A DNA stretch of 29,980 bases from a virus. The translations under genes and the position numbers were made by a program. The notes under the pieces were generated by a model. The model ran no database searches. It saw nothing but the letters and a program-made list of their open reading frames with translations, and was not told the DNA's origin. This document shows, one piece after another, positions 2,904 through 29,980 of this stretch. Each line of letters opens with the position of its first letter. Position 1 is the stretch's first letter. The stretch lies in IMG/VR virus record IMGVR_UViG_3300030450_001365, positions 1 through 29,980 of that record, one strand, 5' to 3'.

Positions 2904-3175
2904 AATTTAGATATTCCCATTTCTAATAATTGCTCGTACTCCCATAATCCTAATTTACTACCTTCAATTTTTACATTTGTTTTATACTTATTATATAATT
3001 CTTTTTCTTTTCTATGTATATATTTTTCATAATCTACTCCCTCAAAGTCTGTGTCTAAATCTCTATATATAAATGTCTTTTCTTTTTCCCCATCATTAAC
3101 AAAGAATATAAAACAATGAGTAAAAACTTTATGACTAGGAGTTCTAATGTTTTTATAAAATCTAAATGGTTTCAT
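2897..3175 (-). CDS. Hypothetical protein (92 aa)
   Basis: The product begins MKPFRFYKNIRTPSHKVFTH. It is strongly charged with many aromatic residues and shows no motif that I recognise. A hydrophobic strand (HCFIFFVNDG) is followed by a Lys/Tyr-rich helical stretch. It starts from ATG at 3175, overlapping the VRR-NUC stop by 14 bp, and its end overlaps the GTG of the sigma-like gene. Its position between a nuclease and a transcription factor gives no clear clue to function. Confidence 0.7.
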   Translation of the reverse strand: MKPFRFYKNIRTPSHKVFTHCFIFFVNDGEKEKTFIYRDLDTDFEGVDYEKYIHRKEKELYNKYKTNVKIEGSKLGLWEYEQLLEMGISKLC

Positions 3176-3512
3176 TTTTATATGTTTTTATTATTTCTAT
3201 TACTTCATCTAACTTATAACATATTACTGCTTTATATCCTCTAGCATTTAATTTAGCTATCCATTCTTTCTGCTCTTTTGTAGGCTTATTATATCCAACT
3301 TTCAACTCAATCATTAATCCATTATATTTATTTTTATTAGATGGCTCAAAAATAAGTATATCAGGCACACCTTTTGAATAGTGTTTAGATAACATTCTCT
3401 TTTGTTTCCAATTAGACTTTCCTAAAAACACCCCTCCTAAAGTACATGTAAATAACATGCCAGTATATTCTAAATAAGTTACTACTGAATTTTGTAATTC
3501 TACTTCTTTCAT
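3162..3512 (-). CDS. VRR-NUC domain nuclease
   Basis: The 116-residue protein is a single VRR-NUC domain of the PD-(D/E)XK superfamily. Visible features are an N-terminal helix with Glu (KEVELQNSVVTYLE), the GVPDILIF strand carrying the catalytic Asp near 49-54, the MIELK motif supplying the Glu-x-Lys near 67-71, and PTKEQKEWI plus GYKAVICY typical of the C-terminal half. Family members include FAN1-type structure-specific nucleases and phage Holliday-junction resolvase-like enzymes. In a phage, processing of replication or recombination intermediates before packaging is the likely role. ATG overlaps the stop of the preceding 47-residue gene (ATGA). Confidence 0.85.
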   Translation of the reverse strand: MKEVELQNSVVTYLEYTGMLFTCTLGGVFLGKSNWKQKRMLSKHYSKGVPDILIFEPSNKNKYNGLMIELKVGYNKPTKEQKEWIAKLNARGYKAVICYKLDEVIEIIKTYKNETI

Positions 3513-5350: not shown

Positions 5351-5364
5351 AACAATATCTTTTT

Positions 5365-5396
5365 ATAAATATATATATAATTTTATAAAACTGTTT
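5365..5396 (-). promoter_or_regulatory. Weak match to the phage promoter element upstream of 5350
   Basis: On the minus strand AAAC (5396-5393) is followed after 17 bp by TATATATTTAT (5375-5365), ending 15 bp before the ATG at 5350. The downstream box differs at one position from the late promoter copy at 17939-17949 and the spacing is the same. The sequence background is very AT-rich, so chance similarity is possible. Confidence 0.4.
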
Positions 5397-15247: not shown

Positions 15248-15278
15248 AATAGTATATATAAATATAGATAATTCGTTT
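15248..15278 (-). promoter_or_regulatory. Late promoter element (portal/lysis unit)
   Basis: On the minus strand AAAC (15278-15275) is separated by 16 bp from TATATACTATT (15258-15248), which ends 15 bp before the ATG at 15233. Box sequence and spacing match the copies upstream of 18803 and 28426, and nearly match the copy upstream of 17924. Confidence 0.7.
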
Positions 15279-15320
15279 TCAAATGTAAGTTTTATAAAAA
15301 AAACTTTATAAAATATAGTA

Positions 15321-15335
15321 GAATATAAAATATTC
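15321..15335. promoter_or_regulatory. Perfect palindrome upstream of the rightward gene
   Basis: GAATAT and ATATTC form perfect 6-bp arms around AAA, 17 bp before the ATG of the rightward gene. In the 15279-15351 stretch there are also repeated TTTATAAA segments, and TATATATTTACTAT directly precedes the ATG. The palindrome is a reasonable operator for a dimeric regulator such as the XRE protein, though AT richness lowers its specificity. Confidence 0.45.
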
Positions 15336-15351
15336 TTTATATATTTACTAT

Positions 15352-15540
15352 ATGGAAACAAGATATACAAAATACAGAACTTATAAAAAAATAGATATTT
15401 GTTATGATAAAAAGTTTAAAGTATGGATATGCAGACAGATGGACTTTACAGCATACACAGAGCAGGAAATGAAAAACTCTATAAACGCAGAACATAGAAT
15501 GACTACCCTAGCAGGTCAGTGTAAATGGATTGAGGGATAA
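15352..15540 (+). CDS. Rightward small protein (62 aa), moron-like
   Basis: This is the only convincing gene on the plus strand. The product begins METRYTKYRTYKKIDICYDK and contains FKVWICRQMDFTAYTEQEMK and an unusual end, TLAGQCKWIEG. It appears to be a small mixed alpha/beta protein with three Cys. It has its own AT-rich upstream region with a palindrome and is followed at once by a hairpin terminator. A free-standing, oppositely oriented gene between structural genes is the classic arrangement of a moron that alters the host or excludes other phages. The function is not recognisable. Confidence 0.7.
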   Translation: METRYTKYRTYKKIDICYDKKFKVWICRQMDFTAYTEQEMKNSINAEHRMTTLAGQCKWIEG

Positions 15541-15573
15541 TAAAAAAGGGCTATCCTTAGATAACCCTATTTT
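15541..15573. terminator. Bidirectional hairpin terminator
   Basis: GGGCTATC (15548-15555), loop CTTA, GATAACCC (15560-15567), with an A-run on the left and TATTTT on the right. Read leftwards the stem is closed by a G-U pair and followed by U6, so it should stop the tail tube transcript well. Read rightwards it contains one C-A mismatch and ends the small rightward gene less strongly. Confidence 0.75.
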
Positions 15574-15593
15574 AATTGAGTAACGATTATTAA

Positions 15594-16208
15594 TTATGTT
15601 CCTGATACAATAGTAAGTTCAGAATCAGCATCTCCTAGAGCATCAAATGGATAATCAGTTCCACTCCCTGCTGTTTTCTTAATCATAAAGATAGGTTCTT
15701 TTTCCTGACCCTCTAATTCTAATGTAAATCCTGACATATCTCCTTTAGCAGCTCCTGTCACAATAGTTCCACCTGTCACATCCATTCCGTTATTAAAGCC
15801 TAATAGATACACATTATCGTTATTGTCCTGAACGAATATTTGTACTCTATTATAGCATATTAATTTTATTTCATTTGCTTGAGCAACTGATATTTTTTGT
15901 AGTGTCAAACTTAAAGTCTGAGAAAAAAATGTAGTTCCTGCTGAAGCATCAGAATTAACATTAACAGTCATTGATGATAAATTAGGTCTAAGGTCATACT
16001 TATACAAAGTCATAGTAGAAGCAGTAGGAGAACCATAAGCACTCCAACCTGTAAAGCCTGCTGTGTCTATTTGCAAGGCATCTGTTCCGTTAGGAGTATA
16101 ATGTTGTCCGATATTTGAGGAGTAATTCGCACAGAAAAAGATTGTTTTCAATCCTCCAATCTGGTCTTTACAATCGACTAAAAGTCCTCTAGTTAATTCA
16201 CAAGCCAT
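15594..16208 (-). CDS. Probable major tail tube protein
   Basis: I choose the ATG at 16208, giving 204 residues starting MACELTRGLLVDCKDQIGGL. A longer frame to 16259 would pass through a terminator hairpin. The MACELTRG...C..GGLKTIFF start is typical of abundant tail-tube-like proteins in Bacteroidota siphoviruses. The rest is beta-rich (MTLYKYDLRP, SLTLQKISVAQANEIKLICY, VFVQDNNDNVYLLGFNNGMD-like strand, then MSGFTLELEGQEKEPIFMIK), fitting a tube monomer. It sits alone between two terminators directly after the capsid gene, which suggests separately tuned, high expression. Confidence 0.6.
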   Translation of the reverse strand: MACELTRGLLVDCKDQIGGLKTIFFCANYSSNIGQHYTPNGTDALQIDTAGFTGWSAYGSPTASTMTLYKYDLRPNLSSMTVNVNSDASAGTTFFSQTLSLTLQKISVAQANEIKLICYNRVQIFVQDNNDNVYLLGFNNGMDVTGGTIVTGAAKGDMSGFTLELEGQEKEPIFMIKKTAGSGTDYPFDALGDADSELTIVSGT

Positions 16209-16232
16209 TTTATATATATTTTTATTGTTTAT

Positions 16233-16257
16233 AAAAAGGGGAGATATTTCACTCCCC
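16233..16257 (-). terminator. Rho-independent terminator after the capsid gene
   Basis: On the minus strand GGGGAG (16257-16252), an 8-nt loop and CTCCCC (16243-16238) form a perfect GC-rich stem followed by TTTTT. It lies 10 bp past the capsid stop. It also shows that the tail tube gene starts at 16208 and not upstream of the hairpin. Confidence 0.85.
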
Positions 16258-16267
16258 ATTAATTAAT

Positions 16268-17257
16268 TTATGCGTGAGCTGAAGTTGCATATACACCATC
16301 AGTTCCTACAGCAGTTTGAACACCCATAGCGAAGTTCATAACGATTCTTACATTGTCTGAGCCGTCAAATTGATAAGTAGGGATGATTCTCGCTTCAGTC
16401 CAGTCCGTAGCTAGGTTAGTACCTACTACAAGATTCTCAGGATATGTAGCAACGATAGTATCGTTAAACATTCCAGGACAAACATAGATAGGGAATCCCA
16501 TATAAGTCAATCCACTAAATTCTCCTGCTGCTCCTAATTGTTGAAATGTAGTAGCAGATGCCAATTTTTGAGCATATAAAGCATAAGTTTTTTGATTCAT
16601 ATAAAAACCAAAACCAGGCTTAGATAAAATCCCCTCTACAGAGCCAACTACTTTGTCATATACTGCTGCTAAATCATCAAGTATATCAGCAGTAGTAATA
16701 GCTCCATCTAAATCTACTTCATGAAAGTCTTTCATAGCTGAAGCCTCAATACCTGTATCATCTAACGAGCCATCATTTGATTGAAAACCAACTAAAGCAG
16801 GGTCGCCAGAACCTTTCCAAATCATATTTTCAATATGCGCTCCTGCCTTTGCAGCAACTGTAGATAGTAAGAAGTTCTCAAATGTACTAGGTAGATTTCC
16901 GTTTCTATCCATATTTTCTCCAATCCAAGTAGGGAAAATTTTACCTCGACATACTTCTTGATTTACTTTCATATCAGTCAAGGTAAGTACCTGCTCTGTT
17001 AAAGCTAAATTTGCAGGAGCATCTGTAGTTGAGAAACCACAAGCTGCTGCCTGAATAGGGTCAGATATTCCTAAGTTATTAATAACTGCTTTTCTATTTA
17101 ATCCATCTATTGTCCTTACATACCCTTTTGCAATTGTGTCAGGTGACTTCACTGCAGCGGATACAAAAGGCAACGCTAATCTACCTGCGTAGGTGTTATC
17201 AGTTATAGTTATATCAAACTGATACTCTTTACTTAAATTATATTTATTATTCGCCAT
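16268..17257 (-). CDS. Major capsid protein (HK97-fold candidate)
   Basis: The 329-residue protein begins MANNKYNLSKEYQFDITITD. Features expected for a capsid subunit are an N-arm, helical spine-like stretch (FENFLLSTVAAKAGAHIENM around 130-150), MIWKGSGDPALVGFQS, an A-domain-like region (VEGILSKPGFGFYMNQKTYA, LASATTFQQLGAAGEF, GLTYMGFPIYVCPGM), and FDGSDNVRIVMNFAMGVQTA near the C terminus. The cargo of acidic scaffold and XkdF-type protease genes immediately upstream supports the call. It follows the scaffold gene by 10 bp and ends at a strong terminator, as expected for the most abundant product. Confidence 0.8.
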   Translation of the reverse strand: MANNKYNLSKEYQFDITITDNTYAGRLALPFVSAAVKSPDTIAKGYVRTIDGLNRKAVINNLGISDPIQAAACGFSTTDAPANLALTEQVLTLTDMKVNQEVCRGKIFPTWIGENMDRNGNLPSTFENFLLSTVAAKAGAHIENMIWKGSGDPALVGFQSNDGSLDDTGIEASAMKDFHEVDLDGAITTADILDDLAAVYDKVVGSVEGILSKPGFGFYMNQKTYALYAQKLASATTFQQLGAAGEFSGLTYMGFPIYVCPGMFNDTIVATYPENLVVGTNLATDWTEARIIPTYQFDGSDNVRIVMNFAMGVQTAVGTDGVYATSAHA

Positions 17258-17267
17258 TTTTTTAAAT

Positions 17268-17924
17268 TTATTTATTGTTAATGTAATACGCTGCTCTTTC
17301 TGAGGCAGTCATTTTAGCTAAATCAATTTTCTCTGACTTAGTTTGTGTTTCAGGATTGTGAGTAAAACCCTTAGCTCCTGGTGTTTCTTCCATTTCTGAT
17401 AACTTAGTTTTTAAGTGTTCTATTTCTTCAACTAAGCTAGTAACCATATCCTTAGACATCTCTACCTTTTCTTCTTCCTCAACTTCTTCTTCAACTGTTT
17501 CTTCAGTTTCTTCTGACATATTTTCTTTGTCTGCTTTTAAATCAGCTACAGCATCTTCAAGGTTTTTTATTCTTTTCTCCATTCCCTCCCAGTCTGCAAC
17601 ATCTGCTTCTTCTGCCATTTCTTCTACTTCTTCTGATGCTTCTACATCTTCAGCTTCTTTTTCTTCTCCCATATCTAAAACTTTACCATTATCATCAATA
17701 GTAAGTTTAGCTCCATCTTCCATAGTATATGACCCTGATGATAAAGGACTAGCCTCTCCATCATCATTAACTACAAAGACTTCAGAGCCTATCATAAATT
17801 GCTCATCCTCAGTAGCTACAACTCTGCCATCATCTAATATCATTTCAGCATACATTTTAACTTCCTTAGATTCCTTATTATCAATAGATAATAAAGTTTT
17901 GATTTTTTCTAACGTGTCTTTCAT
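17268..17924 (-). CDS. Acidic coiled-coil protein, probable scaffold
   Basis: The 218-residue protein has a small N-terminal beta domain (MYAEMILDDGRVVATEDEQF to GKVLDMG, about 24-88) followed by very acidic, Glu-rich coiled-coil segments (EKRIKNLEDAVADLKAD-like, then EEIEHLKTKLSEMEE). The end is TASERAAYYINNK. Acidic, helical proteins between the protease and capsid genes are usual scaffolds. The N-terminal beta part is extra and might contact capsid or be removed by the protease. It lies directly behind a late promoter element and is cotranscribed with the capsid gene. Confidence 0.7.
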   Translation of the reverse strand: MKDTLEKIKTLLSIDNKESKEVKMYAEMILDDGRVVATEDEQFMIGSEVFVVNDDGEASPLSSGSYTMEDGAKLTIDDNGKVLDMGEEKEAEDVEASEEVEEMAEEADVADWEGMEKRIKNLEDAVADLKADKENMSEETEETVEEEVEEEEKVEMSKDMVTSLVEEIEHLKTKLSEMEETPGAKGFTHNPETQTKSEKIDLAKMTASERAAYYINNK

Positions 17925-17938
17925 TGTATAGTATTTTT

Positions 17939-17970
17939 ATAAGTATATATAATTAATTTAATATTTGTTT
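17939..17970 (-). promoter_or_regulatory. Late promoter element (scaffold/capsid unit)
   Basis: On the minus strand AAAC (17970-17967), 17 bp, TATATACTTAT (17949-17939), ending 14 bp before the ATG at 17924. It differs slightly in the downstream box and has one more base of spacing than the other three late copies. A second ATACTAT sequence follows between this box and the ATG. Confidence 0.65.
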
Positions 17971-17975
17971 ACAGG

Positions 17976-18803
17976 CTACCTTTTTACAGTACCACTTTTA
18001 ATAGCTGAACAGATTTTAGCAGCAGATTCTTTTCCGTACTTTTTCTTCATATCAGCGATACATTGCTTCCAAGGATATTTAGCTAACGCCTTTTTCGTAA
18101 TGTATTCTTTCATTAACTCAAATTGGTCTTTTTCATCTTGAGTTATAATCATTCTAATTCTGTCTAATAAATCTTCATCAGACAATATATCTTCTTTAGT
18201 GTATTTCTTTTTCTTTTTAGTGTACCTTTTTTTCTTTGTGAAATCGTGCATAGTAGCCTCTATTAGCTTATCTGTAAAGTATCCCTCTATGCTGAAACCT
18301 CGTACAGATTTTTCACGAACCTTTTGCCAGACCTCATCATTATTAACTTTCATTTTCACAAACCACGTTCCGATTGGCATTTTATCAAATCCAAATTGTG
18401 ATGATTTATCAAATTTTTCATCCTCCTTAATCCAGCTTTCTACAACACTTAATCCCTCAATTGGTACTTTATGCTCATAAGTAGCATTATTGTTTCTTAG
18501 ACTGCCCATAAATAGCTCCTGTGCCTTTTTAATAGTTTCTTTGCTAAAGTAAACTGTATATTCCTCGTTAAGTTCTTGGTCAAATCTTGGTATTTCTTTT
18601 TCAGGAATAAGCACAGCTCCTACTAAAGTCTTTTTTTCTTCATCTAATTTAGCTAAGGATAGGAAATTATCTTTACTGAAAAACACCCAGTTCTCCTCTA
18701 TCGCAGGAAATTCTACTAGGCTTATAGCTTCTACTCCAAATCTTTCTGATTCTTCATCTATGATTAATTCTACTAATCTTTTTTTTACTTTTTTTTCTGC
18801 CAT
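17976..18803 (-). CDS. Prohead protease, XkdF-like
   Basis: The protein has 275 residues. Residues 1-180 match the XkdF-type putative phage serine protease layout: ISLVEFPAIEENWVFF (28-42), TLVGAVLIPEKEIPRFD (59-75), YTVYFSKETIKKAQELFM, ATYEHKVPIEGLSVVESWI with candidate His111, PIGTWFVKMKVNNDEVWQKV, and VRGFSIEGYF with candidate Ser171. It should process scaffold or capsid during maturation. After a very basic linker (KKKRYTKKKKKYT) comes a C-terminal helical tail ending CIADMKKKYGKESAAKICSA, a pattern also found at the ends of other Bacteroidota phage head proteins. The gene follows a late promoter and precedes the scaffold gene. Confidence 0.8.
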   Translation of the reverse strand: MAEKKVKKRLVELIIDEESERFGVEAISLVEFPAIEENWVFFSKDNFLSLAKLDEEKKTLVGAVLIPEKEIPRFDQELNEEYTVYFSKETIKKAQELFMGSLRNNNATYEHKVPIEGLSVVESWIKEDEKFDKSSQFGFDKMPIGTWFVKMKVNNDEVWQKVREKSVRGFSIEGYFTDKLIEATMHDFTKKKRYTKKKKKYTKEDILSDEDLLDRIRMIITQDEKDQFELMKEYITKKALAKYPWKQCIADMKKKYGKESAAKICSAIKSGTVKR

Positions 18804-18806
18804 TAT

Positions 18807-18837
18807 AATAGTATATATTAAAGTTAATAATTTGTTT
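18807..18837 (-). promoter_or_regulatory. Late promoter element (protease)
   Basis: On the minus strand AAAC (18837-18834), 16 bp, TATATACTATT (18817-18807), ending only 3 bp before the ATG at 18803. The upstream box overlaps the tape measure stop codon. Box sequences and spacing match the copies at 15248-15278 and 28430-28460. The tiny distance to the ATG would imply an almost leaderless transcript. Confidence 0.7.
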
Positions 18838-21457
18838 ATAGGCTTGACTGTAAATCTAACTCACTTTGTAAAGCCTGAGCATTACTTATGTCTGTTTCTA
18901 CAACATAAGCCTGGACTGGGGCTTGTTCAGAATCCCCTGTTCCGAATGTAATCTGTGGAATTTGCCCTGTTTCATCAGCTCCTCCATCTTTTGAGCCTCC
19001 TCCATCTCCACCGACAGAACCACCACCACCACCACCAGCTTCTCCTAATGCTCCTTTCGCCTGTGCCACCCCTGCAAATACAATAGCTAACATTTGTAAC
19101 ACTAATCCTGGAGTAAGTACAGGGGCTGCTGGTCCTGATGCTGCTGCTGCTGCCAAAGCTGCAGTGTACGCTGAACTAATTTGTCGCCCTGTATCTATAG
19201 CTATTTGTAATAATGCTGCTTTCTTTTCTTTCTTTCTTTGTTGTTTCTCTATTTTATTTTTTTTCTTATTAAACTCATCTTCAGTAATTAATCCTTTATT
19301 TAACTTCTTTTCTAGCTGACCAATTTCTTTAGTTGCCCCACTTCCTGCAATTTGTACTAAAGAATTTATAGTACTCATAGCATCATCTACCTTTTTTCTA
19401 TTTGCCTCTGCCTGTGTTTCTTCACTTAGTAATATATATTCATCTTGTACTCTTTTAATTTCCTCTTGCTTCATTCTCTCTATCTCTACTTCACTAACCC
19501 CTAACTCTATAGCCTTATCTAACATGACCTGATACTTAGCGTTAATAGAATCTATCTCTAACTGTTCTGCTGATTTATTAAGATTAGCTAATTCCTCTTG
19601 GTTCTTTTTAATAACATCTAGCAACGCATTTTCATCTCTTTCTGTTATTTCTAATATTAAAGCATCTCTTTCCTTTATAAGCTCTATTCTATCTTGTGAA
19701 TCTTCTTCAGTTAAGTCTATAATTTCATTATACTTCTTTTCTATAGCATCTATTTCTTTTTGGTCCTCTGACTTTCTAAATTCATTAACAACAGCTTGAG
19801 CTTGTTCTTTTAATTTTTTTTGAGTTTCTTTAAACTCTGCTTCAGCTTCATCTAACTTTAGTTGATGCGCTGTTGATTTATTTTCTATTGCAAGATTATG
19901 ATTATCTATATTAGTTTCGTTTTGTTCCATTAATAATAACGCCTCCTCAATTAAAGCCTGATTGCTTGCTATTGCCCCATCAAATTGATGAGTAGTTTGG
20001 TCTGATATTGAATTATAATAATCACTTACATCGCTATTAAAAGACCTTATTAGGTCTATATCCCTTTCTCCCTGCTCAGGGTCTATCCAAACGTGCATAT
20101 CTTCATCATAATACTCACTTCTTTGATATCTTAATGCTTCCCTCAAATTATCATCTGCTTGTAGTAATTCGCCTGTATATCTTTTAAGCTGCTTTAAGTT
20201 TTCAGAATTTTCTATTTTTTCTCTAACCTTTATTCTATCAAAAAAATCTTTTTGAGATTTACCTAATCCAGAATATAGTTCATCATATATGCCTAATATT
20301 ATATTCTTTTGTTGTCCATGTGCCTCATCAAATTCTAATCTAGCTGCATCTTCATCCTGCATCCTTTTTATATCTTCCATTAATTGCTCATTCTCCTTTT
20401 TCTTTTGAGCTATTAATTCTTTTGATGCTTTTATACTTTCTTGATTTCCTTTAGTGTCTGTTGATTTTAAATTGTTTAAATGTTCTTGTGCGTCTGCATA
20501 CGCTTGTGCTGCTGATTCTAATTGACCTTTTAAACTCAAATCCTCCTTTTCTACTTGAACATTTTTAGTCATTTCTTTTCTAATATCCTCATACGCTTTT
20601 CTTTCAGCTTCTAATTCATTAGCTACCTTTTCTGCTCTTTCTTTTTGTTGAGCTGCTCTCTCTTGTTCTAATGAATTTAAGTTTGTTAATTGCTCAGACC
20701 TTTGGCTTGTAAGTCTTTCATCTATTTCAGCTAATTTTGTTTTAGCCTCAATTACTCCCACTTGTAAATCAATATTATCTCTATCCAAACGCAACTCCAT
20801 TTCAGCTAATCTTAACGCCTCCTCTGCCATGTGCCTTTCTGCTTCCCCTTGTTCAGCTAATACTCTACCTAGTTCTTCGTTGGCTTCTATTCTTTCAGCT
20901 ATTGACCTTGATGTATCATCCCTTAACTGTCTTTGTAATTCAGCTTCTCTTTGATACTCTAATTGTGTAAGGGCTAATTCTGCGTTCATTAGCTTTACTT
21001 CATTCCTTAACGACACAACTTCTCCTGCCATATTAGACATAGAATCCCCTGCATCATTAGTAACACCAATAAGACTCCCAAGCCAACTAATAGCACTATT
21101 AAACATGTCTATCAAGCCCTCTAAAATACCTGCTACAAACCCTATAACATCTCCTAACGTATCAAATATTGGCTTTAATTTTATCATTATTCTACCAAAG
21201 GTATCTGCTGATTTTTGATTCTGTGAAAACATCCCTGTAAGACTTGCTAATAAACTTACAAATAACCCTATCCCTGCTGTCTTTAAAGCTTTACCTACAT
21301 AGTTAAACCCATTACCCATTATCTTCAATCCTCCTGATGCAACTTTTCCGCTTTTCCCAACACCACTTAATCCCTTGCTCAAATTGTTCACATCTTTTTC
21401 AGCTTTTTTTGTATCTGCTTTAAAAAATAATACTAATTCTTTCATTCCTAATGCCAT
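18836..21457 (-). CDS. Tape measure protein
   Basis: The 873-residue protein begins MALGMKELVLFFKADTKKAE. It contains hydrophobic segments near 55-72 (LKTAGIGLFVSLLASLTGMF) and 95-130, then very long coiled coils from about 145 to 690 rich in Glu, Lys and Gln. The C-terminal part has an Ala-rich membrane-like stretch (YTAALAAAAASGPAAPV, then LQMLAIVFAGVAQAKGALGE) followed by Gly-rich linkers. This layout is characteristic of siphovirus tape measures, which set tail length and help pass DNA through the membrane. At about 0.15 nm per residue a tail near 130 nm is predicted. It overlaps the 61-residue gene by 10 bp. Confidence 0.88.
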   Translation of the reverse strand: MALGMKELVLFFKADTKKAEKDVNNLSKGLSGVGKSGKVASGGLKIMGNGFNYVGKALKTAGIGLFVSLLASLTGMFSQNQKSADTFGRIMIKLKPIFDTLGDVIGFVAGILEGLIDMFNSAISWLGSLIGVTNDAGDSMSNMAGEVVSLRNEVKLMNAELALTQLEYQREAELQRQLRDDTSRSIAERIEANEELGRVLAEQGEAERHMAEEALRLAEMELRLDRDNIDLQVGVIEAKTKLAEIDERLTSQRSEQLTNLNSLEQERAAQQKERAEKVANELEAERKAYEDIRKEMTKNVQVEKEDLSLKGQLESAAQAYADAQEHLNNLKSTDTKGNQESIKASKELIAQKKKENEQLMEDIKRMQDEDAARLEFDEAHGQQKNIILGIYDELYSGLGKSQKDFFDRIKVREKIENSENLKQLKRYTGELLQADDNLREALRYQRSEYYDEDMHVWIDPEQGERDIDLIRSFNSDVSDYYNSISDQTTHQFDGAIASNQALIEEALLLMEQNETNIDNHNLAIENKSTAHQLKLDEAEAEFKETQKKLKEQAQAVVNEFRKSEDQKEIDAIEKKYNEIIDLTEEDSQDRIELIKERDALILEITERDENALLDVIKKNQEELANLNKSAEQLEIDSINAKYQVMLDKAIELGVSEVEIERMKQEEIKRVQDEYILLSEETQAEANRKKVDDAMSTINSLVQIAGSGATKEIGQLEKKLNKGLITEDEFNKKKNKIEKQQRKKEKKAALLQIAIDTGRQISSAYTAALAAAAASGPAAPVLTPGLVLQMLAIVFAGVAQAKGALGEAGGGGGGSVGGDGGGSKDGGADETGQIPQITFGTGDSEQAPVQAYVVETDISNAQALQSELDLQSSL

Positions 21458-21633
21458 AGTCTAAATGTTTTTTTTAGTTGTCTTTTAAATTGTTTTTTTA
21501 CCTTTTCTACATCTTTAGTATATTCCTCTTGACCATATACAAAGTGTAATTCTTCATCCTCTAAATCTATTTTAGTTACAATGCTTAATGATAGAGGTAT
21601 CATAGTCGCTAATTTTTTTATATCTAATTCCAT
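21448..21633 (-). CDS. Small protein (61 aa) between tail genes
   Basis: The product begins MELDIKKLATMIPLSLSIVT and ends QFKRQLKKTFRLWH, with a basic helical C terminus. It overlaps the 1175-residue tail gene and the tape measure gene by 10 bp each, so it is surely read with them. It could be a tape-measure helper. No family is recognised. Confidence 0.7.
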   Translation of the reverse strand: MELDIKKLATMIPLSLSIVTKIDLEDEELHFVYGQEEYTKDVEKVKKQFKRQLKKTFRLWH

Positions 21634-24600
21634 AATAAAAATCCAAAGTCTTGATAAAGTATGCCTGAACTATTTTGGAAAATAGCAATTTCTCCTATAG
21701 GTTTTCCATTTGGGGCTATACCTGTAATTAATAATTTTACTTTTGCCAGCCAGTTTGTTGTATTATTGCCTGAATGTGTAATAGTTAATTTTAAGCTATT
21801 GTCTGAACCAAAAGTAGATATATCTACTGTAGGCTCAGGGAAGTCATTATCTCTTTGTTCCTTATCTTTGTACTGACTTGTTGAGCCTGCGTGTGTTTTT
21901 TCGTTACTTGCTGGGCTTTTTAATACACTATAATACTCAAAGAATCCTACCTTGCCTGTATTCCCCCCTGTTCCTCCTACTATATTTCCAGTTAGTTCTA
22001 CATTTATATAAGCCATAGTATCAGGGGGCAAATTTATTATTCTATCATTTACATTTTGTTGCCTTAAATTACCTGCTGTAGAACCTTGTGTAATACACTC
22101 TAAATAAAATGTAGATTCTTGAGCTGGCAGGTTTGCATTTCTTCTTATTACTTTAGTATCACTATCTTGAATAGGTAGCATTGGCAAGGCTACAGGGGGG
22201 CTAATTGGTATATCTTCTCCACCTGCTGGAGTTCCACCTCCACCACCTGCTCCTCCACCATTAAGACCACCAGCATTTCCTCCTGCTGCCATCATTCCCC
22301 AGTAACAAACTCCTAATCCTAAATCTGAATTAGTCTCCTCATACCAATACCACTGACCAGCATCTTTACAGCATTCAAAAGTAGTACTATATCCTACATT
22401 ACCAGTATTAATATTAGTAAAAAGAATCTGACCTGAATCTGTCCAAGCGTATTGAACATATTGGCAATCATAATTTAATTTAGATATGGCTTTTATTAGC
22501 TTGACTTTTGTTGTTTCATTTCCTCCTACTACATAGCTGTCCACACTAAGAACTCGCCATAATGTATTTTTAATATATACAGGATTTTTAAATGAAAAAT
22601 TAGCAATATCATCTTCATTTAAATGTATATTACATTCCATTATCCTAGCCTCATCACTATATATTTCATTTATATAACTCGCCCAGTAATCATTATAAAA
22701 ACCATGAATACTTTGCGTGTCGCCAAATATATTAAAAGTATAGCCAGTAAGAAATTGAGGATTATAATATTCCCAATGCAGGATTTTAGTCGCTGAATTT
22801 ATTCCACCTCCTATCGTACTTAAATTATATTGAGTACATAAAGGAAATTTATTATTTACATTTAAAGCCTCAGTATCTCCTAGCATGGTATATACTCCTG
22901 ATATTATATTAAATTCCCAATCATTCCCCCATTGGTCGTTCATATCAGTCAAAGTAATAGGCGTTCCACTATAATAGAATAACATAGGCTTTCCATCTGT
23001 AATAGGATGTTTATTTCCATTATCATCTACTTCAAAATTATAAGCTATAGCCACTTGATTATTAGGCGACATCCCTTGCATATTATAAGACCAGTGACCA
23101 ATTCCTTGAGCAATAAAAGGGGCGTATATACTATGGTTTTTAAAATTACCTTTTGCAAAATCATTATTATTTATTTGTTCGACACTACCATAAACTCTTT
23201 CCCATTTATCAATATAACTTTTATTTAATATATCTTGATTTTCTAAATCAGAAAATAGTAGTGTGTTTTTTTGCATTTCATTAGTTGACTTAATTATTTG
23301 CTCTTTAGAGATATCTAATTTATCAGTCCAATATTGAGTTTCTCCACCAGCAATATAATCCTGATATGGTTCTATAATTAAGTTTTTAGCATTACTAGGA
23401 TTGCTCGTTACAATTAAATTATATCTTGAGCATAAATCTTTTACAAAATCCCCCTGAGTAATATCAGGCATATTTTCTGTCATTATAACTTCTCCATTAA
23501 TTCCTCCATTATTAAAAAGCCCTTCTCCTAGATTTATAGTTTGTATAGAGCCTGCTGAATATCCTGCTATAAATAAGCCATTTCCTAAATTACCTGATGC
23601 AAATACAGGGGCTATAGATACCTGCATAAAAGGAGCGTAATTAATGAAATTAAGAATACTAAGTGTTTGAGTAAATTGAACCTCTACGCCATTTCCTGGA
23701 TTTACATTTACAGTTTGAGTTGTAAACGACATCCCATAGTTAAAGTTCCATGATTGAGTAACATTATAACTTTGTATTGTAGTTCCTGCAACAGTTGTAG
23801 GGGCTAGGTATAACGTAAAATTAACTTGTATTACCATTTCCCCAAAAGGAGCTTCATCGCCTGAATCAGGGTCATAAGGAATGTATAAAGTGGGTACTGT
23901 TTCTCCTAAAAAATTTACAGGATTTAATATTCCATTAGTATCAGATTCTATTATATCAAACTCTATAGGCTCTAAATATAAATTATACAGATAGCCTGTA
24001 GATGCTTGATTATATCCAAAATATTCATTTACTATATTAGTTGTAGATGCACTAAATCCCTGATATACCTTTACTCTAGTCCTTTCATATTGAGGGGCTA
24101 ATGTCATAAATTGCCTACCAAAGAAAGTGTCTATATCTTGTGCGTTATTATTCAACCCTAGAAATGTACTTGTAATACTATATCCAGCCCTTGCTGCTAT
24201 TATCTTTAAAAGCCTTTGTATTCTTATGGCAGGTTTTAAATTACTTGCTGTAATTAAGCCATAGTAATTAGTGTTACCTTGCCAGGTACTATTAACCCCT
24301 ACTTCATTATTAGGATTATTAGGGTCTAGATAATCAGGATTCCAAAACATACTGTCGCACAATGGAAGTTGTGTATGTCCATAATCTATAATAGGATATA
24401 ATATATCGTTTTCCGTTGTTTCTAGCATTGTAGTTACGCCTGTAGTCCAACTAGCCTCTACATTAGCTAAGGTTAATCTGTGGTCTAATTGCCTATCTAC
24501 TGTTCCATCATCACGTATAAAGGCTTCTCTTAATTTTTTGCCTTTTATATCGGCAAAGAAATTAGCAGTATCTCCAAACACCACAACCTCATATAATCTT

Positions 24601-25151
24601 GAATTTAAATATATTGATTTAAGCTGTATATAGCCCTCTAATTGTGGAACGCTATCTACTAAAATTACAGCCTTAAATTTTTTTCTAGTATTATATATTA
24701 AAGTATCTAAATTAACATCAAACCAATTTTCAAAGAAGTTATTATTTGAATCAGTAAAAGGTATTTTAATAGTTTGACTAAAATTAGACCTCCTTTGGTC
24801 AGGCTCTTTAATATCCAACCAATTTAGATTTAGTCTTATATTGGGAGCTTTTTGTAAGTCTAAATCATAAGGATTTTCAGGCAAATTAAATAGCATAGCA
24901 TTATCAGGAATTGCTGTTGTAACACTATATAAAGTAACAGTAGAAGCCCCATCTACTGACTTTATCACTCCATATACCACACCTGCATTATCTGTTAATG
25001 TATCGCCTGCTACTAATCTATCTACAGCAGAATATCCATCTGTTGTAATTACTGTTTCTGAATCTGATACAGGATATGTTGAGCCTGGATTATTAATTAC
25101 GACTAATGTGTCTGTCAAAGTTGGTCTATATACTACTAATCTTGTGTTCAT
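21624..25151 (-). CDS. Large tail protein (1175 aa), probable baseplate/tail-tip component
   Basis: The N-terminal part has beta strands (LVVYRPTLTDTLVVI, GDTLTDNAGVVYGVIKSVDG) followed by a conserved-looking region around 125-190: RSNFSQTIKIPFTDSNNNFF, AVILVDSVPQLEGYIQLKSI, LYEVVVFGDTANFFADIKGK. The pattern of a PFT..NN..F box and a DG-like eGY.qL turn recurs in Bacteroidota siphovirus tail proteins, with distal tail or hub position. The middle is beta-rich and Asn-rich, a Gly-rich linker (about 955-985) precedes a C-terminal beta domain. The protein may combine hub and receptor-binding roles. It lies one base after the 470-residue gene. Confidence 0.6.
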   Translation of the reverse strand: MNTRLVVYRPTLTDTLVVINNPGSTYPVSDSETVITTDGYSAVDRLVAGDTLTDNAGVVYGVIKSVDGASTVTLYSVTTAIPDNAMLFNLPENPYDLDLQKAPNIRLNLNWLDIKEPDQRRSNFSQTIKIPFTDSNNNFFENWFDVNLDTLIYNTRKKFKAVILVDSVPQLEGYIQLKSIYLNSRLYEVVVFGDTANFFADIKGKKLREAFIRDDGTVDRQLDHRLTLANVEASWTTGVTTMLETTENDILYPIIDYGHTQLPLCDSMFWNPDYLDPNNPNNEVGVNSTWQGNTNYYGLITASNLKPAIRIQRLLKIIAARAGYSITSTFLGLNNNAQDIDTFFGRQFMTLAPQYERTRVKVYQGFSASTTNIVNEYFGYNQASTGYLYNLYLEPIEFDIIESDTNGILNPVNFLGETVPTLYIPYDPDSGDEAPFGEMVIQVNFTLYLAPTTVAGTTIQSYNVTQSWNFNYGMSFTTQTVNVNPGNGVEVQFTQTLSILNFINYAPFMQVSIAPVFASGNLGNGLFIAGYSAGSIQTINLGEGLFNNGGINGEVIMTENMPDITQGDFVKDLCSRYNLIVTSNPSNAKNLIIEPYQDYIAGGETQYWTDKLDISKEQIIKSTNEMQKNTLLFSDLENQDILNKSYIDKWERVYGSVEQINNNDFAKGNFKNHSIYAPFIAQGIGHWSYNMQGMSPNNQVAIAYNFEVDDNGNKHPITDGKPMLFYYSGTPITLTDMNDQWGNDWEFNIISGVYTMLGDTEALNVNNKFPLCTQYNLSTIGGGINSATKILHWEYYNPQFLTGYTFNIFGDTQSIHGFYNDYWASYINEIYSDEARIMECNIHLNEDDIANFSFKNPVYIKNTLWRVLSVDSYVVGGNETTKVKLIKAISKLNYDCQYVQYAWTDSGQILFTNINTGNVGYSTTFECCKDAGQWYWYEETNSDLGLGVCYWGMMAAGGNAGGLNGGGAGGGGGTPAGGEDIPISPPVALPMLPIQDSDTKVIRRNANLPAQESTFYLECITQGSTAGNLRQQNVNDRIINLPPDTMAYINVELTGNIVGGTGGNTGKVGFFEYYSVLKSPASNEKTHAGSTSQYKDKEQRDNDFPEPTVDISTFGSDNSLKLTITHSGNNTTNWLAKVKLLITGIAPNGKPIGEIAIFQNSSGILYQDFGFLLWN

Positions 25152-26563
25152 TAACTATTGGTTCTTATTGTATTAGCATACTCTAAATCAAGAGAATATT
25201 GAATTTTTACTCTATCATTAACGCTGCTTTTTTTTATGTAACTTTTATTCTTTAATATAACAGGATATACTATATTATTATCCCCTAATATTTGCACGTT
25301 AGTAGATGTAAATAGTTCCTCTAACCAACTAGCCTCATCATCATTAAGCCAATCGCTATTTACTTTTAATTTTCTAGTAGCTTGACTAAATAAAGTATTT
25401 CTCCCTCTATCCCAATTATCATATCCAAATGTAAGCTCATTCCAAGTACCTGGAGTTTTAGCACTTTCAGATTTTCTAATATCTACACTCTCTACTGATT
25501 TACCTCTAAAATTCATATAATCCCAAGCCCCTAGTCTATTCACCCAAGCTAGTCTAACATTATCATATCTAGTACAAGATTGATGTCTGTCATCTACACT
25601 TGCCCCACTACCATATCTATAGAAATAGTATATAGCTGTTTTAACGGCTGCTCCCCCTGCTGATTTTCCTTGTATAGTATAATACGCCCAATTAGTATTA
25701 TTGCTTGGTCTTTGTAGATTAGTTCCACCATCATTAAAATTCTCTAAATTTCTAGTTCCACAACCAAAGTATAATAGACTGTTTTTCATATCATCAGCAA
25801 CAGCCTTGCCACCTACAGAGGTAGTAGAATCAATATCAACATCATTTATAAGCGAACCAGCATTAGTATAAAATCTTATTCGTATGCTAGTACACGCATC
25901 GGTAATCACTAATCCTCTATTTACAAAGGCTACTGTCAATTCATCAACATTATCTGCTGATGCATCTCCACCTCTAACAAATTGTACAAACGGAGCATTA
26001 CTTAAAAATCTTGAATTATTATCATCGGGTAGATTTGGCGTTAATGGATAATTAACACCATCTTTATCTAATCCCCCTTCATTTGCTCCTATTTTAGTAA
26101 AAGGCGTTGTCGCAGGAATACTATGTATTATTTCATTGTCTAGGTTTAATGTTTCTTCAGGGCTTGAATTAGCATCGGCTGCCTTTTCATATCCACCTAC
26201 TATTTTTACGCCTATAAATTGACTTGTGTTTTGTGAATAGGCATTACTGGTATCAGTTATTCCTATTGAATGAATACTACCATCTATTGATTCTTGGTCA
26301 CCTACATTCTTTTCTTGTGTTTTTAAATATGTTGTAATTATTTTTGATACATCTACTATGCCTACATCATTAGCATTCTTATATAATTTTATTTTAGCTT
26401 TTTGTACCCAAGTAGAATTATCTGTTGTGCTTATATATACTTGAGCTATATATCTAAATTTAGCTGCATTAATTATAGACCCTGTTGTTTCTTTTAATAT
26501 AAATACCATTGGGCTATTTGATGCTGCTAATAAACTGGGTTTTTGTGTTATTGAATATGCCAT
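25151..26563 (-). CDS. Tail protein (470 aa)
   Basis: The product begins MAYSITQKPSLLAASNSPMV and is beta-rich throughout, for example FRYIAQVYISTTDNSTWVQK, VDVSKIITTYLKTQ, VQFVRGGDASADNVDEL and RIRFYTNAGSLINDVDIDST. A region around 320-400 (YYFYRYGSGASVDDRHQSC, LAWVNRLGAWDYMNFRGKS) is followed by a short C-terminal domain. The Q-K-P start and W.NRLGAWD.F motif are ones I associate with tail proteins of Bacteroidota siphoviruses. It shares a base with the 1175-residue gene stop/start, suggesting joint assembly at the tail tip. Confidence 0.6.
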   Translation of the reverse strand: MAYSITQKPSLLAASNSPMVFILKETTGSIINAAKFRYIAQVYISTTDNSTWVQKAKIKLYKNANDVGIVDVSKIITTYLKTQEKNVGDQESIDGSIHSIGITDTSNAYSQNTSQFIGVKIVGGYEKAADANSSPEETLNLDNEIIHSIPATTPFTKIGANEGGLDKDGVNYPLTPNLPDDNNSRFLSNAPFVQFVRGGDASADNVDELTVAFVNRGLVITDACTSIRIRFYTNAGSLINDVDIDSTTSVGGKAVADDMKNSLLYFGCGTRNLENFNDGGTNLQRPSNNTNWAYYTIQGKSAGGAAVKTAIYYFYRYGSGASVDDRHQSCTRYDNVRLAWVNRLGAWDYMNFRGKSVESVDIRKSESAKTPGTWNELTFGYDNWDRGRNTLFSQATRKLKVNSDWLNDDEASWLEELFTSTNVQILGDNNIVYPVILKNKSYIKKSSVNDRVKIQYSLDLEYANTIRTNS

Positions 26564-26564
26564 A

Positions 26565-27176
26565 TTATTCTATCGTTATTTTGTTAGGAAGTTTGTTTAT
26601 TAATTTACCAAAGTCTAATCTAAATGCTTCTACAAGGTCATTAGGTAGCGTTTTAAGGGCTTTCTCTACTGGCTTAGAGTAAAACATGGTTCTTTCTAAT
26701 CCTCGCCTTTTAATGGAATATCCTATTGCAAAGGCTGCTCCTAGTTGATTTCCATCTTTTAGGCTTATAGGCTTATTTCCAATCCAGCCCTGAATAGCAT
26801 TTACTAGCTTTCCTTTTGGATTAGTGTACTTAAAACTAAAAGGGCTTCCTGTAGTATTCCTTAATGTTTTTCTTTCTACATTTTCGCTAGCATCAGCATA
26901 TCCCTTTCCTTTTACTCCCTGGTCAACAAATCGCCAGTAATTATCAGCCTTGCCAAATCCAAAGCCTAGTGTAATAGAACTTTGGTCTGTTTTCATTGTA
27001 TAGTGATACTCATTAAATAAAGTATTTGTTTTAGTTCTTTTTTTATCTTTATTTAATATAGCCCTCCCCTCTTTAATTATATTAGAAGCAAAAGTAGTCA
27101 TAGATTTTTCTAAGTTCTTAGCCTCTCCTTTTATAAATTTGCCATCTGGTCCTCTTAATTTAAATACTACTGCCAT
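26565..27176 (-). CDS. HK97 gp10-like neck/tail component
   Basis: The 203-residue protein starts MAVVFKLRGPDGKFIKGEAK. It shows the features of gp10-type head-tail joining proteins: an N-terminal helix (MTTFASNIIKEGRAILNKDK), a beta hairpin (TDQSSITLGFGFG), YWRFVDQGVKGKG (the FV..GV.GKG turn), and C-terminal YSIKRRGLERTMFYSKPVEK, like the IKRRGI motif of this family. It is longer than the usual 120-150 residues. Neighbours are a tail-completion candidate and tail proteins, consistent with the neck. It shares one base with the upstream gene stop. Confidence 0.55.
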   Translation of the reverse strand: MAVVFKLRGPDGKFIKGEAKNLEKSMTTFASNIIKEGRAILNKDKKRTKTNTLFNEYHYTMKTDQSSITLGFGFGKADNYWRFVDQGVKGKGYADASENVERKTLRNTTGSPFSFKYTNPKGKLVNAIQGWIGNKPISLKDGNQLGAAFAIGYSIKRRGLERTMFYSKPVEKALKTLPNDLVEAFRLDFGKLINKLPNKITIE

Positions 27177-27688
27177 TATGAATTTGGGTCATTGTCTGAT
27201 GGCTCTATAGGAGCTACGCAGAGATTATTGGTATTATTTACTTGTATTGACATACTAGCTGACCATCCTGTTAATATATTAGCAAATCTAGCTGTGAAAG
27301 GTTCTGTACTTATTGGCAAGTCTAGAACAGCCTCATTAGGCACATAGCTTAATTTCTTACCACTATCTCCTCCTGATGTTTGTAAAGCTAAGTTCTGCCT
27401 GAATTCAGCTATTATATCTTGTGTTATTTGTAATGTATTTGTCCATACTTCATTTCTATTAGTCAAATCTTCTTTAAGTGTATCTAAAATAAATATAGTA
27501 AATGAGTATGTTAATACTCCCATGTCAATAGTAGCTGTTCCAGGCTCACAATAAAGTATCGGAAAGTCTGATTTATCAAGTTTATTTACATCCACCTCAT
27601 CTAAAAAGCCTGAATGGAAAGAATTAATTAAATAGTGATTAGTAGCTATATCACTAAAATCATCTATTACGTTTTTGAAAGTTATCAT
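27176..27688 (-). CDS. Probable tail completion/terminator protein
   Basis: The 170-residue protein begins MITFKNVIDDFSDIATNHYL. An N-terminal helix is followed by DFPILYCEPG, a strand (VLTYSFTIFILDTL), a long helix (NEVWTNTLQITQDIIAEFRQ) and C-terminal strands (SASMSIQVNNTNNLC). This helix-strand-strand-helix order is that of tail terminators such as lambda gpU and related proteins. Its place before the gp10-like gene fits. It starts within the C-terminal part of the frameshifted chaperone reading frame, so translation of the two overlaps by 29 bp. Confidence 0.5.
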   Translation of the reverse strand: MITFKNVIDDFSDIATNHYLINSFHSGFLDEVDVNKLDKSDFPILYCEPGTATIDMGVLTYSFTIFILDTLKEDLTNRNEVWTNTLQITQDIIAEFRQNLALQTSGGDSGKKLSYVPNEAVLDLPISTEPFTARFANILTGWSASMSIQVNNTNNLCVAPIEPSDNDPNS

Positions 27689-28426
27689 ATTTATTTTTTG
27701 TTGTACTTGTTTTATCTTGTTGATAACATAAATAGGTCAATACTAAATAAAACTCTAATTCTGTTATCTTTGTTACATTGAGAATATTCTCATTTGCCAA
27801 TGAAAAGATTACGTTATACCATCCCCATTTACTCCCTAAACTTCTTTCTTCAGCTTCTCCATCTCCTTTTTCAAATATTTGTGCAAAGAGTTTTGTAGTT
27901 TTTTTCCTAAAAGAAAAAAAAAACTCAATGCAGACATCGAGGGAAGTATTGGAAAGTCTAAAAACTCATCCTGTACTTCTTTACTTGGCACATAAGGTTC
28001 AATACTATATCTCCTATTTGTTTTTTTAACTATTGGTCTATATAATATGCTCATTATCTTATGTAAATTATCCTCAGCATTTTTACAATGTTCCTCTATA
28101 TCAATATATTCCCCCATTGTTATCTCGCTTAGGTTAGGAATAAAGCCATACTCCTTTCCTTTCCATTCTACTTTCTTTACTAGCTCTTTAGTATCAGGCA
28201 TTTCTTTTTCTAAGAATTTTAGACTTTTTAATACCTTATTAATACTTTTAATTTCCATGTTTTGAACTATGTCTTTTTCCAACCCACATATCACACTCAA
28301 AACAGCTAAATTAAATTCTTCTTCTTTAAGTTTTCTATCCCTTACTTTTTTAAATTGTAAGTACATATTAATTGAAATCCCATTCCAGTCCTTTGGAATA
28401 CTAACCTTTCTACTTTCTCTACTCAT
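27660..28426 (-). CDS. Tail-assembly chaperone, -1 frameshift fusion product
   Basis: Moving to the -1 frame at the A7 run (27905-27899) after residue 176 gives an open frame of 79 further codons, ending at TGA 27660 within the next gene, for a 255-residue fusion. The extension reads TTKLFAQIFEKGDGEAEERS and then WGWYNVIFSLANENILNVTK, followed by ITELEFYLVLTYLCY. The W-GWY..I..LA..D/E.IL pattern fits the T domain of tail-assembly chaperones, which binds the tape measure. The extension has no ATG of its own. It fills the otherwise gene-free 27689-27835 gap completely. The alternative is an indel error in one of two homopolymers (A7 here, T10 at 27914-27923). Confidence 0.7.
27836..28426 (-). 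CDS. Tail-assembly chaperone, unshifted product (196 aa)
   Basis: The zero-frame product begins MSRESRKVSIPKDWNGISIN. It has FNLAVLSVICGLEKDIVQNM, then GKEYGFIPNLSEITMGEYID, and NLHKIMSILYRPIVKK followed by YSIEPYVP, ending with a hydrophobic stretch SALSFFFLLGKK and a Lys/Glu-rich tail. The G-YGF.P-L..IT.GEYID and NLH.I...LYRPI pattern is frequent in Bacteroidota phage genomes. Combined with the frameshift it is read as the G-type product of a tail-assembly chaperone pair, made in excess over the fusion. A late promoter lies immediately upstream. It follows the TerL gene, an unusual location for this gene. Confidence 0.7.
   Translation of the reverse strand: MSRESRKVSIPKDWNGISINMYLQFKKVRDRKLKEEEFNLAVLSVICGLEKDIVQNMEIKSINKVLKSLKFLEKEMPDTKELVKKVEWKGKEYGFIPNLSEITMGEYIDIEEHCKNAEDNLHKIMSILYRPIVKKTNRRYSIEPYVPSKEVQDEFLDFPILPSMSALSFFFLLGKKLQNSLHKYLKKEMEKLKKEV
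27899..27905 (-). other. Candidate -1 slippery heptamer A AAA AAA
   Basis: In the chaperone frame the codons are TTA GGA AAA AAA CTA, giving the classical X XXY YYZ form A AAA AAA followed by C. Slippage allows both Lys tRNAs to re-pair in the -1 frame. A T10 run 8 bp upstream is a weaker alternative site. I see no obvious strong hairpin directly downstream. Confidence 0.65.
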
Positions 28427-28429
28427 TTT

Positions 28430-28460
28430 AATAGTATATATAATTTGTTAATAATCGTTT
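28430..28460 (-). promoter_or_regulatory. Late promoter element (tail block)
   Basis: On the minus strand AAAC (28460-28457) just past the TerL stop, 16 bp, TATATACTATT (28440-28430), ending 3 bp before the ATG at 28426. Spacing and both boxes are identical to the copies upstream of 18803 and 15233. The 28459-18836 tail genes are packed without gaps behind it. Confidence 0.7.
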
Positions 28461-29628
28461 ATAAAATATAGTATTTGCCACTATGGTTTGTCATTAGCTT
28501 ATTTAAAGCAACATATCTAACAGCATCAATTAAGTGGTCTTGCTGGTTAGTGGCTGGTTTATTTACTATGTGTCCATTCTTGTCAGTTAGCCATTTGTAA
28601 TATTTAAACTCATTTAAAGCATTTGTACTGTTCTTAGTTATATGTATCTTAAATCGCCTTAAAATGTCTATACCCATATTTATAGAATCAGCTCCTTTCT
28701 TAGCTCCTTTGATATTAAATCCTTGTCTATATAGTTCTTCTATGGATTTAGGCTCTGCTGAATCAGCTATTATTTCTGTTTGTCTTGTAATATTTAATTC
28801 TCTTAGCTTTTCTGCTATATCTTGGTTTGTTAATCCTTTACTATATATTAGTTCGTTTATATACAAATCATCATTTAATTTATAAACTTCTGCTATTGCT
28901 GTAGGGTCATTACTATATCCAAAGTCCATGCCAATAGCTATTAGACTAGCTTCAGTAGGTACATTATTAGCTATCTCAAATTGTCTAAAGATAGTTTCGG
29001 TTGGTTGAGCCATATCGCCTAATCCGTAAATTTTCCAATAGTTACTATCTAAATCCCTTAACCTTTCTATTTCTTTTATTGTTTCATCAGGTAAAAAAGG
29101 ATTGTCTAAATATGTTGATTTAATAAAAGTACAATCTTCTCTATTCATTACATTATCATAAATCCAACTATAAGGGTCTGAGGGATTAAAGTCTAAATAT
29201 ATATTTTCCGTAGTCCTTAAACTGAGTTGAATCCAATCCTCAAAACTAAATTCATTTGCCTCATTAAGCCATAGTATATTTCTTTTTCGCCCTCTTATCT
29301 TTTGTGGCATATCAACTGATATGAATTCTATTTCATTGTTATTTAATTTGTATGTAAGTTCAGACTTATTATGTTTGTTGGGATTATAAAGGTTATGCTC
29401 CTCTAATATATTAAAGAAATCTTTATAGGCTGTACCCTTTAAAGCAGGCAAGGTTTTTCTACATATTGTATACACCTTTCCTTGCTCCTGTAATGCTTTA
29501 AGGATTATTAACTGTGCTAAAGAATAAGTCTTACTGCTTCTAGTTCCACCTTGATTAACTACTATTCTAGTATTAGCATTAAGATTTTTCTGTAGGACTA
29601 TTGTTCCCTTTAGGTTTAATGATTTCAA
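28459..29628 (-). CDS. terL: Terminase large subunit (PBSX-type)
   Basis: This is the DNA-packaging motor, with 389 residues from a TTG start at 29628; there is no ATG before the conserved region. The ATPase has Walker A GGTRSSKT (27-34), the RKTLPALKGTAYKDFF adenine-side segment, and Walker B ILWLNEANE with the catalytic Glu. The RNase H-like nuclease follows: MDFGYSNDPTA, ADSAEPKSIEEL and DHLIDAVRY, each carrying an acidic metal ligand. The order and motifs fit the PBSX-like terminase family. It overlaps TerS by 50 bp and its stop lies in the first box of the tail promoter. Packaging from a circularly permuted concatemer (headful) would fit the lack of real ends. Confidence 0.93.
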   Translation of the reverse strand: MKSLNLKGTIVLQKNLNANTRIVVNQGGTRSSKTYSLAQLIILKALQEQGKVYTICRKTLPALKGTAYKDFFNILEEHNLYNPNKHNKSELTYKLNNNEIEFISVDMPQKIRGRKRNILWLNEANEFSFEDWIQLSLRTTENIYLDFNPSDPYSWIYDNVMNREDCTFIKSTYLDNPFLPDETIKEIERLRDLDSNYWKIYGLGDMAQPTETIFRQFEIANNVPTEASLIAIGMDFGYSNDPTAIAEVYKLNDDLYINELIYSKGLTNQDIAEKLRELNITRQTEIIADSAEPKSIEELYRQGFNIKGAKKGADSINMGIDILRRFKIHITKNSTNALNEFKYYKWLTDKNGHIVNKPATNQQDHLIDAVRYVALNKLMTNHSGKYYIL

Positions 29629-29959
29629 TTTCTATCTTTTTAATTTCTTCATCATTAGAAGTTAAATTTATATTCTGCTGTTGTATATATCCTCTCTTGT
29701 GTCCTTTATGTTGTAAGTAAAATATAATACTTCTTTCCTTTTCTTTTTGTATGTTCTTAAATAATTGACTTTCTACAAAGTCTAATTTTACATTGTCTAT
29801 CTCATCTACTTTCTTTCTAAAGTCCTCATCTTCTTTATACCATTTATAAAAACTTGACCTACTTATATTTGCTTTATTACAAGCTGTAGATACTATTCCT
29901 AATGAGTTCTCTAAACTCTCTATTAACATTTTTTTCTTTATGTGTTCTTTTTTGCTCAT
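29579..29959 (-). CDS. terS: Terminase small subunit
   Basis: This 126-residue protein begins MSKKEHIKKKMLIESLENSL. Residues about 8-55 form a helix-turn-helix (GIVSTACNKANISRSSFYKW) like those that recognise packaging sites. A helical region follows (DEDFRKKVDEIDNVKLDFVE, then QLFKNIQKEKERSIIFYLQH) with KGHKRGYIQQQ, the usual end of the oligomerisation domain in phage TerS proteins, and an acidic-to-basic tail. It directly precedes TerL and overlaps it by 50 bp. The start lies in the terminal repeat; on the circular map it is 15 bp after the ABC-GNAT gene, so it is probably read from the early transcript. Confidence 0.85.
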   Translation of the reverse strand: MSKKEHIKKKMLIESLENSLGIVSTACNKANISRSSFYKWYKEDEDFRKKVDEIDNVKLDFVESQLFKNIQKEKERSIIFYLQHKGHKRGYIQQQNINLTSNDEEIKKIEIEIIKPKGNNSPTEKS

Positions 29960-29980
29960 TTTATTAAATTTATTTTATAA
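29893..29980. repeat. Right copy of 88-bp exact terminal repeat
   Basis: Identical to bases 1-88. It includes the start codon and first codons of TerS and the short gap after the ABC-GNAT gene. It marks where the circular map was opened. Confidence 0.97.

Follow-up and report, generated by a model that had tools for sequence, protein, structure and literature searches.

Four copies of a bipartite repeat in the DNA analysed here (the window: a whole IMG/VR record of an uncultured virus, linear, 29,980 bases, about 70% A+T) are best read as late promoters that would be recognised by the host core RNA polymerase together with a phage-encoded ECF-like sigma factor, the predicted product of 2367-2903. 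We place the probability of this reading, which comes from sequence analysis, at about 85%. The early/middle cluster would supply the sigma factor, whose region 4 would bind the -35 box, (A/G)AAC-A/G-A, and whose region 2 would open the -10 box (T-11 A-10 T-9 A-8 C-7 T-6 in the window group). The late blocks beginning at 28426, 18803, 17924 and 15233 would be switched on by this factor and would need it, and the transcripts of the 28426 and 18803 blocks would start at or next to the ATG.

A bipartite motif precedes four presumed late blocks

The main genes of the window all lie on the minus strand. They include recognisable terminases, a portal gene, a capsid-like protein gene and a gene with head-maturation-protease similarity, and their function and position suggest which genes are early and which late. 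The putative promoters precede the gene after the large terminase gene (TerL), the protease-like gene, a presumed scaffold/capsid pair and a block leading to the portal gene:

28459-29628, minus strand: large terminase; the TTG start given by the ORF caller is provisional
28433-28460, minus strand: putative late promoter 1, with AAAC at 28457-28460, a 16-base spacer and TATATACT at 28433-28440; before gene 28426, just past the large terminase gene
18810-18837, minus strand: putative late promoter 2, with AAAC at 18834-18837, a 16-base spacer and TATATACT at 18810-18817; before gene 18803 (head-maturation-protease similarity)
17942-17970, minus strand: putative late promoter 3, with AAAC at 17967-17970, a 17-base spacer and TATATACT at 17942-17949; ahead of gene 17924, presumed to encode the scaffold, and of the capsid gene
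16268-17257, minus strand: gene for the presumed major capsid protein, a 'virion structural protein' by PHROG; follows promoter 3
15251-15278, minus strand: putative late promoter 4, with AAAC at 15275-15278, a 16-base spacer and TATATACT at 15251-15258; ahead of gene 15233 (65 aa) and of the portal operon

The pattern AAACN{15,18}TATATACT has exactly four matches, each of them on the minus strand of the window, against a mean of 0.13 and a maximum of 1 in 100 dinucleotide shuffles, in line with the original prediction of such a motif at four late units on this strand. Each match lies immediately 5' of a gene that starts with ATG (28426, 18803, 17924 and 15233). The spacers at the 28433, 18810, 17942 and 15251 sites measure 16, 16, 17 and 16, the same values as first given, and the gap from the 11-mer to the ATG is 3, 3, 14 and 14; of the predicted range of 3 to 15 bp, the lower end was thus recovered at two sites and the upper end came out as 14, also at two sites. 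Since TATATACT irrespective of AAAC occurs 12 times in the window (5.1 expected), its pairing with AAAC and its placement are what counts. When each site was held out in turn from a position weight matrix, the held-out sites ranked 2, 3, 6 and 1 among some 18-20 thousand windows. With the full matrix they are the top four (scores 20.5-24.4), the next being 18.4 at 24421, within a coding gene, so the many equal-scoring matches in coding regions that would have counted against the prediction were not seen. The host-type pattern TTTG-N17-21-TAHHTTTG (sigma-ABfr promoter) has 0 sites on both strands of the window, which agrees with the claim of a specificity unlike that of the host.

The putative promoters are conserved in relatives and fall into classes

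Relatives were collected through two queries, the sigma-like protein and the capsid protein. The comparison with related phages proposed with the original prediction found the promoter kept at all four sites. In front of their orthologues of the four genes, the relatives carry (A/G)AAC-A/G-A, whose distance to a -10 containing TATA is locked. More specifically, 223 orthologous promoters were register-aligned; their -35 is mostly AAACAA, GAACAA, AAACGA or AGACAA and their spacers are variable, with a distance from AAAC to the T opening the -10 region of 14 in 205/223 and 15 in 18/223. Class A, to which the window group belongs, has a -10 of TATATATA followed by C, A or T, and class B has TATATTTAT. 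A set of 100 distinct class-B promoters shows 93-100% fixation at -31A, at -30C and at almost every position from -17 to -7, whereas the spacer from -27 to -18 is for the most part not fixed. The C at the diagnostic position is confined to class A, where 37 promoters have it. A single TATATATAT promoter is present in each of seven class-B phages. Position -10 alone was rejected as a class marker, as seven class-B scaffold promoters have A there; C-7 is diagnostic.

A regular expression for both classes, run on 1.8 Mb of related loci, gave 289 matches on the gene strand and 2 on the opposite strand, counts that are not all independent given partly overlapping loci; 236 lie just 5' of an ATG, and a Markov control gave 8 matches.

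The only cultured relative found was the Nonlabens (Persicivirga) phage P12024L, reached via the capsid protein alone, at 26% identity. Its gene order is VRR-NUC, gp35 (annotated sigma-70 region 2, Pfam above cut-off), terminase, and it has seven AAAC-N16/17-CGTTA sites, each at an ATG, six before structural blocks and one shortly past the sigma gene; the motif recurs in related contigs. In the SigH register, with the C of AAAC at -30, the CGTT of P12024L supplies G-11 T-10 T-9, the bases that SigH reads. The gp35 system is the same as that of the window in the VRR-NUC/sigma/terminase order, in the AAACAA -35 and in having promoters at the ATG of late genes; it differs in that its -10 is CGTTAATA and gp35 is not confidently alignable with the window protein. 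T-9 and A-8 are common to the window-group, class-B and P12024L promoters, and -11, -10 and -7 differ. The -10 half varies by phage group, being TATATACT in the window, TATATTTAT in class B and CGTTA in P12024L, and the -35 half is kept. No description of the P12024L promoters was found in any paper.

The motif is absent from two flavobacterial phages, Flavobacterium phage 11b and Croceibacter phage P2559S, neither of which has a sigma in its annotation. The latter (L203) has a repeated host-like promoter, TTTGACAATTAAAG...TTTAATTTAGCA, before 1516, 28271, 30691 and 37410; between it and the ATG lies a shared leader, ACCGAGAGCA, which looks like a conserved 5' leader element.

We also considered that the host primary sigma factor, sigma-ABfr, reads the promoters as a variant of TTTG/TAnnTTTG, AAAC being a UP-like or spacer feature, and judge this distinctly unlikely. 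The class-B -10 does resemble TAnnTTT, TATATTTAT sharing 7/8 bases with TAnnTTTG, and the regions before genes 5350 and 4440 contain TATATTTA. However, the -35 differs from that of the host, the window -10 is TATATACT and not TAnnTTTG, the TTTG box is absent from the right place and the window lacks the host-type pattern. AAAC is moreover fixed at -31/-30 with locked spacing, whereas the -33 motif of F. johnsoniae is weak (PMC6847099), and the CGTTA of P12024L is unlike any sigma-ABfr -10.

The window encodes a putative ECF-like sigma factor

The proposed recognition factor, absent from the original prediction, was found in the follow-up analysis together with its setting:

2367-2903, minus strand: ECF-like sigma factor, 178 aa, GTG start, proposed to recognise the late promoters
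3162-3512, minus strand: VRR-NUC nuclease gene, syntenic marker upstream of sigma
29579-29959, minus strand: small terminase subunit (TerS); relatives have it behind the sigma block, and the cut in the window record falls between the two

Searched alone against Pfam and PHROGs, the window protein has no match. In its family, 42/43 homologues match TIGR02937 (NCBIfam, sigma70-ECF; best 2.1e-10) and 17/43 match a PHROG sigma family. The window protein itself matches TIGR02937 at 0.003 over residues 12-172, with 17.2 bits against the curated cut-off of 42.9, a homology at superfamily level only. By hhalign, residues 18-168 of the sigma profile align with E. coli RpoE/FecI (E 5e-4). A PDB sequence search gave no sigma match with sigma profile A1 and weak matches to ECF sigmas with the P12024L profile A3; profile A2 matches the P12024L sigma weakly.

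The AlphaFold model of the 178-aa protein predicts two helical domains and a poorly predicted linker. Its leading Foldseek matches in the PDB are ECF sigmas (probability up to 0.99, best E 5.7e-3); the low confidence of the linker between the two domains keeps the E-values modest. A domain-only match to sigmaE region 4 bound to -35 DNA has a TMt of 0.68. The model and this match support a region 4 helix-turn-helix in a protein without sigma1.1 or sigma3. Region 2 of Mtb SigH uses W81, I85, N88 and Y90 (PMC6411747), and Y61-x3-I65-x2-N68-x-Y70 of the 178-aa protein fits their spacing, W81-x3-I85-x2-N88-x-Y90. This pattern, in which N68 is invariant, and the TIGR02937 alignment over residues 12-172 support a sigma-70 region 2 with the promoter-melting residues. 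The block RIMINQYHS, the most conserved of the sigma-like family, matches the W81/I85/N88/Y90 region of SigH. Residue 73 was rejected as a specificity determinant, since L152, L153 and L155 break the rule and S73 is present in the class-B phage L152; no single sigma residue predicts promoter class.

A tblastn search for the sigma gene in cultured phages gave no match, nor did a genome-collection scan find cellular copies; the link to P12024L and the original prediction indicate that the host is probably a member of the Bacteroidota. For a single-subunit phage RNA polymerase gene, there was no RNA polymerase family match among the large ORFs scanned in this perhaps incomplete record.

Promoter class follows the backbone that includes the putative sigma gene

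The sigma gene is present in 28/45 capsid-bearing records, including all of 23 kb or more; it is absent from two of about 22-23 kb and from most shorter fragments. The relatives that were checked share the order VRR-NUC, sigma, HNH, ParB, (ABC/GNAT), TerS, TerL, late promoter, so that sigma sits immediately ahead of the late genes. The sigma tree (18 A, 42 B) shows a single change of promoter class. The capsid tree for the same 28 phages shows five, as many as five class-A phages allow, and a capsid tree with class A monophyletic is rejected (AU p about 1e-58); with strict labels, in which ties are not counted as class A, the capsid-tree changes are 6 for all phages and 5 for the paired set. 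Promoter class therefore follows the sigma-containing backbone and not the capsid gene, which is itself driven by one of these promoters. As TerL and the 18803 gene track the class too, the tree test does not single out sigma. The original suggestion that the specificity is supplied or altered by the phage gains from these data, in that a sigma-like gene lies on the contig and promoter class appears to track it across relatives.

Phages that differ in promoter class appear to have swapped capsid genes (16268-17257 in the window); the window capsid shares 86-90% identity with its counterparts in many class-B phages and 66-78% with those in most class-A phages.

A phage or host activator could instead bind at the AAAC(A/G)A -35 and recruit the host sigma holoenzyme, the 178-aa protein being that activator in the style of T4 MotA or P2 Ogr. 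Individual Pfam matches of the homologues include YlxM-like and other HTH models, and late activators such as ArpU occupy the same locus in other phages. We find this very unlikely, as the protein has a region 2, the melting-residue pattern and the invariant block, and the -10 differs between clades along with the sigma clade, which an activator of the host sigma does not explain. Shared ancestry of upstream DNA or AT-rich chance, with no promoter at all, would draw on the about 70% A+T of the window and the 12 occurrences of TATATACT and is extremely improbable, given that both boxes are fixed while the spacers have diverged, that the strand bias and the Markov control contradict it, and that the distant P12024L group shares both the -35 and its distance from the ATG.

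Late messages are predicted to be leaderless

With the predicted +1 borrowed from the SigH register (C of AAAC at -30), the ATG starts at -4 to +3 in 41/41 promoters after TerL, 58/58 before the protease-like gene and 36/61 before the scaffold gene, and at +6 to +13 in orthologues of gene 15233. In the P12024L group the ATG is mostly exactly at the predicted +1, and at window promoters 1-4 it stands at +2, +2, +14 and +13. The earlier proposal of nearly leaderless messages would thus hold for two of the four window promoters and, in relatives, for most orthologues at three of the four sites. Since more than half of the promoters have their ATG on the predicted +1 or only a few bases from it, leaderless late mRNAs are predicted, in a phylum in which most transcripts have leaders in the one species profiled (PMC6847099).

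Comparison with known systems

The window protein resembles the ECF (group 4) sigma-70 factors, such as Mtb SigH and E. coli RpoE, in having sigma2 and sigma4 only and about 180 aa. It differs in being viral and very divergent in sequence, with no linked anti-sigma seen. The promoters are also alike in the -35 (GGAACA in ECF promoters, (A/G)AAC-A here, with (A/G)AAC at -33 to -30) and in the rigid spacing to the -10, and in the P12024L group only in GTT at -11..-9. The window -10 is not of the ECF GTT/GTC type; TATATACT is A+T rich with T-11 A-10 T-9, T-9 being common to all. T4 gp55 reads TATAAATA, a promoter without a -35 box, and requires co-activators. In its role the putative sigma factor is likened to it and to SPO1 gp28/gp34, phage-encoded sigma factors with distinct promoters for middle/late genes (PMC9429907).

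On balance, we favour a family of phages, presumably of marine Bacteroidota, with its own ECF-like late sigma, a fixed -35 specificity, a -10 switched between lineages (TATATACT, TATATTTAT, CGTTA) and many late messages starting at AUG. If true, the lineages would form a natural series in which the re-targeting of sigma region 2 is coupled with leaderless expression of late genes. Sigma and promoter come here in many natural pairs in which the -35 stays constant and the -10 changes, and these make the reading of the -10 by ECF region 2 directly testable; most deserving of a test are the combination of a fixed -35 and a switching -10 and the predicted leaderless late starts. No paper on late-promoter recognition or a late sigma in Bacteroidota phages was found in a search that reached few subscription journals.

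A weaker copy and other conserved elements

A weaker copy had also been predicted upstream of gene 5350:

5351-5396, minus strand: weaker promoter-like copy, with AAAC at 5393-5396 and a -10 of TATATATATTTATAAAA; before gene 5350

It is present, and about 15 relatives keep it; its -10, however, is TATATATATTTATAAAA, relative L008 has lost the -35 and relative L141 has the TATATTTAT form. For these reasons, the copy may be a separate (middle or host-type) promoter and not a fifth late promoter. The conserved AAAC...TATATATATTTATAAAA is possibly a middle promoter of the block that includes sigma.

At 83-1135 on the minus strand, an ABC-type ATPase half is fused to a GNAT acetyltransferase half (phrog_11143); several relatives carry this fusion between their ParB-like gene and TerS. 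The bases just 5' of the TerS start (ATAAAATAAATTTAATAAAATG; window 29960-29980, L005-L171) are nearly the same throughout both promoter classes, even though the gene preceding TerS varies.
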